NCBI GenBank assembly: GCA_027022365.1
Contig: JALVYU010000026.1
Location: 310,001-374,000, forward strand
Reading direction: 5' to 3'
DNA length: 64,000 nucleotides
From: Desulfurococcales archaeon
GTDB lineage: Archaea; Thermoproteota; Thermoprotei_A; Sulfolobales; Desulfurococcaceae
In this document: piece after piece, positions 13,357-18,147 of the stretch
Numbering within the stretch: the stretch's first letter is position 1
How the letters are laid out: every line of letters begins with the position of its first letter
Made by a program: the position numbers and the translations under genes
The notes under the pieces: generated by a model
Told to the model about the DNA's origin: nothing
What the model saw: the letters and a program-made list of their open reading frames with translations, nothing else
The model's database searches: none

Positions 13357-13806
13357 ATGATTAATAAAGAGAAGTTTGAATTCCTTGATCATCCAGCTGA
13401 TGTTTATATAAAAGCATATGGTGCAAGTCTACCGGAACTCTATGAAAACGCGGGGCTAGCATTGTTTGAGACTATGACTGATACTACCCTAGTAGAGCCG
13501 TTGAAAAAGTTTAGTATAGAGGCTGAGGGCTTCGATCTCGAGAACTTGCTATATAGATGGTTAGAGGAGTTGCTCTACGTATATTATAGCCATAATGTGA
13601 TGTGTAGCCGAGTAATAGTAGAAAGGATCGAGATTACAAGGCGGGAGGACTGCTTCATGTACACTATTAAGGGAGCATGTTATGGAGAAGAATTTGATCC
13701 GAGAAAACATGAAGCGCGCGTTGAAGTTAAAGCAGTAACATATCATTTAATGAAAATAATTAAGGACGAAGAGGGGTGGAAAGCCTATTTCGTTCTTGAT
13801 ATATGA
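13357..13806 (+). CDS. Archease
   Basis: 149 residues, full length for the family. Archease activates the RNA ligase RtcB by promoting its guanylylation and so acts in tRNA splicing and RNA repair. The typical N-terminal FLDHPADVYIKAYG, the central LLYRWLEELLY and the C-terminal HEARVEVKAVTYH segments are all visible; the Asp and His residues in the first and last motifs are the metal ligands of the family. Its 3' end overlaps the convergent archaemetzincin gene by 22 bases. Relevant here because nearby RNAs carry introns. Confidence 0.95.
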   Translation: MINKEKFEFLDHPADVYIKAYGASLPELYENAGLALFETMTDTTLVEPLKKFSIEAEGFDLENLLYRWLEELLYVYYSHNVMCSRVIVERIEITRREDCFMYTIKGACYGEEFDPRKHEARVEVKAVTYHLMKIIKDEEGWKAYFVLDI

Positions 13807-14405: not shown

Positions 14406-14467
14406 TTCACATACCTATGTGTAGAATAGTGCCGCCGCGGGGATTTGAACCCCGGACAACCCGGTCT

Positions 14468-15049
14468 TCAGCTTCGCCGGATCACCCGTGCCAGGAGCCA
14501 ATATTTTCTTTTATGGCTACTGCTTATATATTTTATCCACTTTGACACCTGTGCTACCCCATAGATTGCTAGCTTGTACGCCTTATCTGATTTCCGTATA
14601 TGTGAATTAATACCGTAATTTTGCACAAGTATAGATTTTACCTGATAAAGCAAAGCTACGCTTTTGCTTGTGATCTCTATGGTTGGGTACTCTTCTACAT
14701 CAGGCTTCCTAGTATAGAATATTGTTCAGTCAGTATCAAATATCCCCCTAATTAACATATTAACATACTCGTTTTTTACCAATTCCCGCGGAATTGTTAT
14801 TATTGAGCTCTTCTTACCGGTCGGGAATCCTAGTTGTTTAAAGATGTTAAATAATTGTTTTGACTTGAATTCTATTCGGTAGGCTTTTGAACGGTATTTT
14901 ATTTTTGGTCTCTTGCCAATAATTTTTTCTATAAGTCTTGATATATGGAGCGTGTATTCGTAATCTCCTTCAGCTATCGAGAAGAAGTATTTACAGTTTT
15001 TACTATGATATAGTGATCCATCTCCAATCATTATTCCATAGAATTCCAT
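14468..15049 (-). pseudogene. LAGLIDADG homing endonuclease, broken by a stop in motif 2
   Basis: Reads in one frame from an ATG at 15049 (preceded by AAGGAG) to a TGA at 14468-14470, with one in-frame TGA at 14726-14728. The first catalytic motif is FYGIMIGDGSL; the second reads IRGIFDTD, then the stop, then TIFYTRKPDVEEYP. The normal residue after DTD is Gly, so one base change (GGA to TGA) explains the break. The C-terminal half continues intact for about 85 codons and its final stop lies in the tRNA anticodon loop. The undamaged remainder suggests recent inactivation. A second independent start downstream would give only half an enzyme. Confidence 0.85.
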
Positions 15050-15138
15050 AAACTCCTTAGTGTTAATTATGCTAGCCGTATTAGAAAAAAGAGAAGAACA
15101 AGTATTAGAGGCAGAAAGGCTCCTGGCACGGGCGTCCA
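14473..15138 (-). other. Large archaeal tRNA intron with BHB splice motif
   Basis: 666 nt inside the tRNA-Phe gene. The ends pair through a 15-bp perfect helix (CCCGTGCCAGGAGCC with its complement), extendable by two pairs, closed by GGA/UCC, a 3-base bulge, the 4-bp helix CGCC/GGCG and a second 3-base bulge. Each cut falls between bulge bases 2 and 3, as the splicing endonuclease expects. Most archaeal tRNA introns are below about 120 nt; this one is long because it carries a homing endonuclease frame. Confidence 0.85.
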
Positions 15139-15314
15139 CGGGCGCTCTCCCGGGCTGAGCTACGGCGGCATCGCTTACTAACATATTAATGTTACTGGTT
15201 TATTAGTTTTTATGGAGTGGTCAATTATTTGTACTCCTTTCAACATTTATTATGTATGGCTAGGAATGTCTACGTTAAAGCTATGGGGCTACCTTGTCTT
15301 GGGGGTGATCTTAT

Positions 15315-16491: not shown

Positions 16492-17088
16492 CTATTTTCG
16501 TCGGAATATTAGTATTGTGTAGCCTTTCCGGGAGATGTTCTTAACTACTTCTATGTCCTTTCTCGTGTTTAGCTTGCTGATATAGTAGTTTGCCCCTCTT
16601 GCTAAGACGAATTCTGCGTATCCTCCTTTCTTTAGGTGTTCTATGCTTCCAATAATTATTTCTTCGACAATTTCTTTACCAGCTGATATTGGTGGGTTGC
16701 TTATTATCATATCGAATATCATGCCCTTTACGGGCTCGTATACGTTGCCCTGGAGAACCCTGACTCGTTCCTCGACACCATTTAGCCTTACATTATATTT
16801 CGCTATTTTAACGGCGACAGGATTTATATCTACCATGTATATCTGCAACTTAGGATAGGCCTTAGCAAGACTTATTCCTATGACTCCGTACCCGCATCCA
16901 ATATCCAGTACTGTGCCCTCCTCAACGATTATGGCGTGTTCGAGCAACAGTTTTGTGCCTAGATCTACCTTGTTGCCTGAGAATAGGCTAGAATAAGTGA
17001 CAAATTCTAGTGTAACCCCCTTATAGACGAACGAAATAACCTGTTTCTTCCCCAGCCTATATTTGTTGGGCCTAAAATAATGTGTCAT
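16492..17088 (-). CDS. Class I SAM methyltransferase, RsmC/MJ0882-like
   Basis: 198 residues. The SAM-binding loop VLDIGCGYGVIG (about 58-69), the acidic VDINP and the catalytic NPPIS motif are characteristic of enzymes that methylate an exocyclic amino group of RNA bases. Size and layout match archaeal homologues of the RsmC half-domain (MJ0882). Its ATG overlaps the stop of cbf5 (ATGA), so it is the last gene of the long ribosomal cluster and probably acts on rRNA or tRNA. The modified base is not known. Confidence 0.85.
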   Translation of the reverse strand: MTHYFRPNKYRLGKKQVISFVYKGVTLEFVTYSSLFSGNKVDLGTKLLLEHAIIVEEGTVLDIGCGYGVIGISLAKAYPKLQIYMVDINPVAVKIAKYNVRLNGVEERVRVLQGNVYEPVKGMIFDMIISNPPISAGKEIVEEIIIGSIEHLKKGGYAEFVLARGANYYISKLNTRKDIEVVKNISRKGYTILIFRRK

Positions 17089-18147
17089 TTATTCTTCCTC
17101 CAGACAGGCGGATACACGCCCGTCTTCATGTAGACCCGTTTGGTCTTCACTACTATTCCTTTCTTCATCCTAGCAATTTCTTCTGCGCTTTTGAGAGCTT
17201 GACCTAGCGCGACAAGTTCTCCTTTGAGCGTGAGGATCGCCACGAGCTTTCCAGGCTGTACATCCTTGGTCAGTCTCACGATGCCTGGGACAGCGAGGTT
17301 GGCGCCATGGGCTATTGCGTCTACAGCCGTATCACGTATCATTATCTTTGGTATATGGACTATCGCTGTTTCCACGGGTAGCACCACTTTACGTAGATAT
17401 CTCTCATCCCCTTCATTCCTCCAGAGATACAATGCCTCGCTTACCTCCTGCATTCTAACAAGTGTCTCGTCTTCCCGGTAGGGCCCTGTTCTCGTTCTGC
17501 GGAGCTCCCTCATATGGGCCCCCACGCCCAGCAATAGGCCTAGATCATGGGCTAGTTTACGCATATATGTGCCAGCCTCACAAAGGACTCTCAACAAGAC
17601 ATATCTCTCATTATGCTCAAGTATTTCGAGCTCATAGATTGTTCTCTTACGTATAGTTCTCTTAACACTCGATCTGAGAGGCGGCTTCTGATATATTGTT
17701 CCTTTGAAATTCTCTAGTGCTTCAACAAGCTCCTTATCTCCGACATCGCCGTGAAGCTGAACCACCATTACATATTCTTTGACGGTATGTATTACATTAC
17801 CTATTACTTTAGTAGCATTAGCTAGGGCCACAGGTAGTACGCCGGTCACCTTGGGGTTTCCCCGCCCCAGCCCCTCAAGGCTAGGGCTCTAGGGTACCCC
17901 CGTGACCAGCGCGTTCTAGCCCGAACATTTTCTTAATCCAAGCTACTACCTCATGACTCGTAGGACCTGGTGGTTTATCGAGATTAATCACTCCATTCCT
18001 TATATGTTCCTCGATTTTCCTCTCGTACGGGAGGATACCGTAATCGGGCGATGTATCATCTTCTCTAAGCACTATCCATTCGTTCTTGAATCCAGCATGT
18101 GTTGTTATCTTGTCTATGAAGATAAGCCCTTTTTCAGCGAGACCCAT
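17085..18147 (-). CDS. cbf5: tRNA/rRNA pseudouridine synthase Cbf5 (dyskerin), gene with one intron
   Basis: Catalytic subunit of H/ACA ribonucleoproteins; converts uridine to pseudouridine in rRNA and tRNA. Two frames must be joined: exon 1 17889-18147 and exon 2 17085-17857, giving 343 residues, the usual length. Without splicing the frame ends at GHGGTLEP-stop; with splicing it reads GHGGTLDPKVTGVLP, which restores the catalytic Asp. The N-terminal NLDKPPGPTSHEV, the thumb/PUA-side GTYMRKLAHDLG and a C-terminal PUA domain from about residue 255 are present. The gene follows L14e after about 160 bases and overlaps the methyltransferase. Confidence 0.96.
17858..17888 (-). other. 31-nt BHB intron in cbf5 pre-mRNA
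   Basis: Ends AG^A and AA^A as two 3-base bulges flank the 4-bp helix CCCU/GGGG (one U-G pair); inside lies a 9-bp helix GCCCUAGCC/GGCUGGGGC with a 6-base loop. Removal creates the GAC codon of the catalytic Asp. A cut shifted by one base gives the same mRNA, but the bulge geometry favours these ends. Introns at this place in cbf5 are known from other crenarchaea. Confidence 0.92.

Follow-up and report, generated by a model that had tools for sequence, protein, structure and literature searches.

A long BHB intron with a broken LAGLIDADG homing endonuclease gene in the tRNA-Phe gene of a Desulfurococcales archaeon

The window analysed here is a stretch of 64,000 nucleotides from a Desulfurococcales archaeon, and a tRNA-Phe locus occupies positions 15169 to 14430 of its minus strand. 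The gene is in two exons separated by a long intron, and the features to which the text will refer are the following, all on the minus strand:

15139..15169, minus: exon 1 of tRNA-Phe(GAA), 31 nt, up to tRNA position 30; the 5′ part in relatives is 100% identical
14473..15138, minus: intron at 30/31, 666 nt
14430..14472, minus: exon 2 of tRNA-Phe(GAA), 43 nt, from tRNA position 31, with the anticodon GAA
15138..15144, minus: 5′ side of the BHB motif, with the CGCC strand at 15144-15141 and the bulge CG/U (slash, splice site) at 15140-15138, from the fold and pair counts
14472..14478, minus: 3′ side of the BHB motif, with the GGCG strand at 14478-14475 and the bulge AA/G at 14474-14472, from the fold and pair counts
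15118..15137, minus: 5′ strand of the inner helix, GGACGCCCGTGCCAGGAGCC, pairing with 14499-14479
14479..14499, minus: 3′ strand of the inner helix, GGCTCCTGGCACGGGTGATCC, with a one-base bulge
14468..15079, minus: broken gene for a LAGLIDADG homing endonuclease, from profile matches and comparison with the genome G101

Spliced in silico, the exons give 74 nt that form a full cloverleaf, identified by ARAGORN as tRNA-Phe(GAA). With long introns permitted, the same program reports the entire locus as tRNA-Phe with a 666-nt intron; by default neither ARAGORN nor Rfam reported it. The joined exons are 97-99% identical, over 74/74 nt, to intronless tRNA-Phe genes of the same order, which excludes a chance resemblance. 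Is this the only tRNA-Phe gene of the organism? The source genome is a draft assembly in 44 contigs, 99.97% complete, and a search of it with the joined gene found no second tRNA-Phe; the other full-length matches examined are Ile, Met, Lys, Ala, Arg or Thr.

An earlier, sequence-only reading of this DNA had proposed a tRNA-Phe gene whose two halves fold into a complete tRNA, with a 666-nt intron at 30/31, and had named a second intact tRNA-Phe(GAA) gene, together with the lack of a spliced product from this locus, as the finding that would speak against it. The gene, the intron borders at 15138 and 14473 and the copy number all bear this proposal out; the splicing itself is something we infer. 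The same reading had called the length unusual, and rightly so, because the published ranges for archaeal tRNA introns are 11-129 nt (PMC4090602) or 11-175 nt (PMC2738675). The site is less surprising: 30/31 is listed among the non-canonical positions of archaeal tRNA introns (PMC4090602).

The exon-intron borders fold into a BHB core, in which a 4-bp helix (CGCC/GGCG) stands between two 3-nt bulges that carry the splice sites. The inner helix consists of 3 + 2 + 15 bp, one-base bulge included. To call this motif textbook, as had been done, fits the 4-bp helix, the 3-base bulges and the long inner helix, but the outer helix has just 2 bp. The pairing is retained in 98.5% of cells across five distinct homologues, with two compensated pairs; by itself this gives modest support, because the intron ends hardly vary (30 of 500 in a shuffle control). 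A BHB core and a complete tRNA upon removal of the insert are the marks of an archaeal BHB tRNA intron, and both are found here. The same genome encodes two tRNA_int_endo genes.

Other genes of the neighborhood can be mentioned at this point. An archease gene lies on the plus strand at window positions 13357-13806, about 600 nt from the tRNA-Phe gene; archease is a partner of the RNA ligase RtcB. At 17085-18147 on the minus strand, the gene for the pseudouridine synthase Cbf5 is divided between two frames that meet at a hairpin, and this is probably the known BHB intron of crenarchaeal cbf5 pre-mRNA (PMC2738675).

What, then, makes the intron so long? The reading frame inside it matches the Pfam profiles LAGLIDADG_3 (E 4.6e-10) and LAGLIDADG_2. 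The copy in the window is broken: it has ACG at 15079-15077, where G101 has its ATG start, and an internal TGA at 14728-14726, within the second LAGLIDADG motif (DTD, then the stop), although this single TGA could be a sequence error. With the endonuclease dead, no movement can start from this locus now. Better preserved relatives exist. In G101, which belongs to the same genus (WAPN01000014.1, Desulfurococcales archaeon S144_56_esom), the frame is intact and 96% identical; in G107, from another genus (JALWZC010000055.1), it is open and 73% identical. The protein with its two LAGLIDADG motifs is intact in the first, open in the second and broken in the window. For the intact protein a two-repeat LAGLIDADG fold is predicted with a pLDDT of 90.9, and the solved structures nearest to the model are those of 7qsu, an intein that bears an endonuclease, and of the intron-encoded I-Tsp061I (TM 0.75), with I-DmoI further down. 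The intact protein therefore models as an archaeal intron endonuclease, a predicted function. When the BHB-stem codons are excluded, dN/dS for the pair G101 and G107 amounts to 0.056; the synonymous sites are nearly saturated. By this ratio the endonuclease is under purifying selection, something to be expected only when the enzyme is used.

The way in which these frames end deserves some attention. That of the window stops with the TGA at 14470-14468, which is U33-G34-A35 of the tRNA itself, and the frames of the loci L070, L071 and L097 likewise cross the 3′ splice site and stop inside the anticodon loop. The stop is UGA at 33-35 in tRNA-Phe and UAA at 36-38 in tRNA-Lys. This occurs in all of the open in-intron copies, yet it may be due to chance. 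Since such frames cross the 3′ splice site, the full-length protein would require an unspliced transcript. The beginning of the frame is also peculiar in G107 (locus L071, 654-nt intron), in which no intronic ATG, GTG or TTG precedes the first motif and a GTG straddles the 5′ splice site. The introns of the window (666 nt) and of G107 (654 nt) are both multiples of three, and their ligated ends would create an in-frame AUG; the circle of L071 would be an endless open frame with that AUG at its junction. Translation of a circular intron was considered as a feature of the family and set aside, because in G101 the 662-nt intron does not fit this pattern and provides an AUG of its own.

A homologous intron is found at 30/31 in at least five other genomes, with lengths of 662 nt (G101), 654 nt (G107), 633, 670 and 527 nt. 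Two of these have open frames and three are decayed, namely those of G166, G191 and the locus L082 (JAGGUY010000045.1, Thermoprotei archaeon AUK086); in addition, G158 has the 3′ end of a similar intron at a contig edge. The comparison drew on assembled genomes, several of which are metagenomic. The contig ends of G140 and G210 were considered as a sign of intron polymorphism and rejected, for both contigs end elsewhere. Other genera of the family have an intronless tRNA-Phe, and short introns of 27, 29, 31, 51 and 84 nt sit at the same position in G189, G195, G130, G113 and G135, respectively. These short introns of the sister genera may be deletion derivatives of the long one.

Has the intron been inherited or has it moved? 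One can imagine an ordinary non-canonical intron, passed on vertically, that gained an endonuclease gene once and was never mobile afterward. The short introns at the same site, widespread in the family, would fit such a history, and so would the genes flanking the tRNA-Phe locus, which are syntenic within the genus. The trees say otherwise. In the Cbf5 tree of the hosts, G000, G101, G140, G166, G191 and G210 stand together (100/99), G107 adjoins G135, and G724, the genome of L082, falls far outside. In the intron tree, G107 joins G000 and G101 (96/97), and G191 joins G724 (97/95); this tree has six rows only, some of them decayed and fast. A single clade for the genus is rejected by the intron data (AU p = 0.00097), and the AUK086 intron is 69% identical where Cbf5 is merely 60% identical, closer than its host gene allows. 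Added to the purifying selection that only an enzyme in use would be expected to show, these data make strictly vertical descent improbable. The conflict between the two trees points to horizontal movement, which is supported within the limits of a six-row tree. A shared insertion site across lineages, with trees that contradict those of the hosts, is what characterizes a mobile intron.

We therefore consider it very probable that the sole tRNA-Phe gene of this archaeon was invaded at 30/31 by a BHB intron carrying a LAGLIDADG homing endonuclease gene that has since decayed here. The length of 666 nt finds its explanation in this broken, horizontally mobile gene. The sequence-only reading was right about the gene, the site, the BHB motif and the length, but it overlooked the LAGLIDADG gene, the homologues at the same site and the horizontal movement.

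The events at the locus, splicing, cleavage and homing, are ones that we infer, and they may be pictured as follows. The intact endonuclease would once have cut intronless tRNA-Phe alleles near 30/31; intronless genes with near-identical exons are present in the order. Recombination repair would then have copied the intron into the cut allele, and the interrupted gene would have become immune to the enzyme. After fixation no target would be left, and the endonuclease would decay, leaving long, dead introns behind; the short introns (27-84 nt) that sister genera have at this position are perhaps decay products as well. The tRNA would remain functional throughout: the two-subunit tRNA splicing endonuclease would cut the bulges and a ligase, RtcB, would join the exons. 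Ligation by RtcB is an established archaeal pathway.

Is tRNA-Phe a special case? Profile searches extended to the phylum and to another class recovered endonucleases of rRNA introns and very long ORFs, probably inteins, and also a number of LAGLIDADG genes linked to tRNAs. In the genome G674 such a gene lies within an intron in the D-arm of tRNA-Lys(CUU); the ends of this intron form a BHB-like structure, its removal leaves a complete tRNA-Lys, and its length is also 666 nt, a coincidence. At another 18 loci, a tRNA in the same orientation follows directly after the LAGLIDADG gene (Phe 4, Lys 1, Trp 8, Leu 3, Val 2), starting 56-291 nt past the end of the LAGLIDADG match. The tRNA genes at these loci measure 91-202 nt, more than an intronless tRNA of their kind, and are mostly intron-bearing. 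Two further genes, L103 and L106, adjoin a divergently oriented tRNA-Leu(CAA) whose length is ordinary; the tree places them with the genes upstream of an intron-bearing tRNA-Leu(CAA).

All 11 of the tRNA-linked proteins scanned match LAGLIDADG_3. The tree of these enzymes groups them by isotype, across host families and across both architectures (Phe 93/91, Lys 99/93, Trp 100/99, Leu 100/100). When each combination of host family and isotype is represented by a single row, the sorting is perfect, a result equaled by shuffled labels 19 times in 2000. The in-intron enzyme of tRNA-Phe has only 32-35% protein identity to its upstream-of-tRNA relatives and groups with them at 93/91. A second profile search returned mostly endonucleases of rRNA introns and of long ORFs, probable inteins, and for three further genes from it (L223, L224 and L228) no same-strand tRNA follows shortly downstream. 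The link between LAGLIDADG genes and tRNAs is strong but not universal. As for the organism itself, its 16S rRNA gene (L079 505-1038, contig C7) has a LAGLIDADG-encoding intron, whose protein is a distant relative of the tRNA-Phe enzyme.

The family f14 is informative in this regard. The tRNA-Phe is interrupted at 30/31 in all four of its genomes that carry a Phe-type gene, while it is intronless in 51 of the 63 scorable genomes (3 of the 12 intron cases were scored from hit geometry only). In several genomes without the upstream endonuclease (G463, G594, G615, G616, G617), the tRNA-Phe intron at 30/31 measures 27-30 nt and closely resembles those adjoining the endonuclease. Three of the tRNA-Phe-linked enzymes of this family (L085, L095, L096) have GNG in place of GDG in the first LAGLIDADG motif, and from this substitution one catalytic aspartate may be missing. 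Remnants of a tRNA 5′ part also occur upstream of some genes. Comparable fragments occur at the Trp loci L188, L189 and L191 and are clear in the first and last of these. The tRNA-Phe remnant of L085 and L096 scores only slightly above the best of 200 shuffles, though it begins at nt 1 in both; that of L085 stops at nt 30, adjoining the position of the intron. None was found in L084, L098, L092 or L115.

The succession of tRNA 5′ fragment, ORF and complete tRNA in some relatives recalls the only locus with this architecture reported so far, the 1.8-kb insertion in tRNA-Thr(GGU) of Caldiarchaeum (Sugahara 2012, PMC3293823). The Phe and Trp relatives share with it the 5′ fragment, the ORF and the intron-bearing complete tRNA, whereas the locus in the window is a true intron. 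In Caldiarchaeum the ORF was assigned by SVMProt to the DNA recombinases and was linked to pNOB8-type plasmids (PMC3293823). By the same logic, the insert described here could be a plasmid or virus that targets tRNAs with an SSV/pNOB8-type integrase, and the shared gene order is the point in favor of that origin. Yet every copy scanned is a LAGLIDADG protein and none an integrase: the 11 tRNA-linked proteins gave no match to an integrase family, and at the in-intron loci neither an integrase nor a duplicated attachment site was seen. The insert is, moreover, spliceable, only 0.5-0.7 kb long and devoid of other genes. A viral source was also considered and rejected, as the one viral-contig match is weak (28% identity over part of the protein). 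An integrative element is thus a very improbable origin. That the locus is an artefact, a chimeric assembly or a pseudogene with the true tRNA-Phe elsewhere, might be suspected from a 44-contig draft and a gene that default tRNA finders miss, but can scarcely be credited given perfect exons, no other tRNA-Phe in a 99.97%-complete genome and the same structure independently assembled in five other genomes.

The preferred reading, an invading intron with its own homing endonuclease, has clear parallels. Homing endonuclease genes have been described for archaeal rRNA introns (PMC4496867), and the crenarchaeal 16S and 23S introns (I-DmoI, I-Tsp061I) have BHB ends, an intronic endonuclease gene and mobility, and they too decay to remnants and short introns (PMC4496867); the fold of their enzymes is also the one predicted here. 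Here, however, the host gene is tRNA-Phe, not rRNA, and the tRNA-Phe enzyme and its tRNA-linked relatives form a branch of their own, with 27-39% identity to the rRNA-intron enzymes found in this work. The non-canonical tRNA introns and the tRNA-Lys split at 30/31 (Nanoarchaeum, Staphylothermus) share the site, the BHB core and the expected removal by the splicing endonuclease (PMC4090602), whereas the published introns of this type are short and have no protein gene, unlike the 527-670 nt and endonuclease gene of this family. Mobile introns that bear homing endonucleases also occur in tRNA genes of bacteria and organelles (PMC3984707), but those are group I introns, self-splicing ribozymes; here the ends are of the BHB type, and Rfam gave no group I match at the gathering score within the window. 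No earlier endonuclease-encoding archaeal tRNA intron was found in the literature searched, which covers few of the subscription journals, so that priority is unproven. The parts are known; the tRNA host gene and the isotype-specific set are apparently not described in that literature.

The origin of archaeal tRNA introns and of split tRNAs is a long-standing question, and these data suggest that selfish genes help create such introns. Across the Thermoproteota, the lineages of the LAGLIDADG set to which this enzyme belongs are each tied to one tRNA isotype, either inside the intron or beside the gene. In the second arrangement the element could move as a cassette of the enzyme and a 5′ tRNA part for replacement, in which a short intron would make the repaired gene immune. 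That isotype-specific endonucleases drive the gain of archaeal tRNA introns and gene fragments, moving as intron or as cassette, is a proposal that we make tentatively and rate a little short of an even chance. Should it be correct, many of the short, ordinary introns in archaeal tRNA genes would be scars left by earlier homing. In any case, an endonuclease lineage lodged in a tRNA intron, with relatives tied by isotype to other tRNA genes, puts forward a concrete agent for the gain of introns. The locus also shows that a mobile element can reside even in a tRNA gene that is essential and present in one copy, where default tRNA annotation overlooks it.
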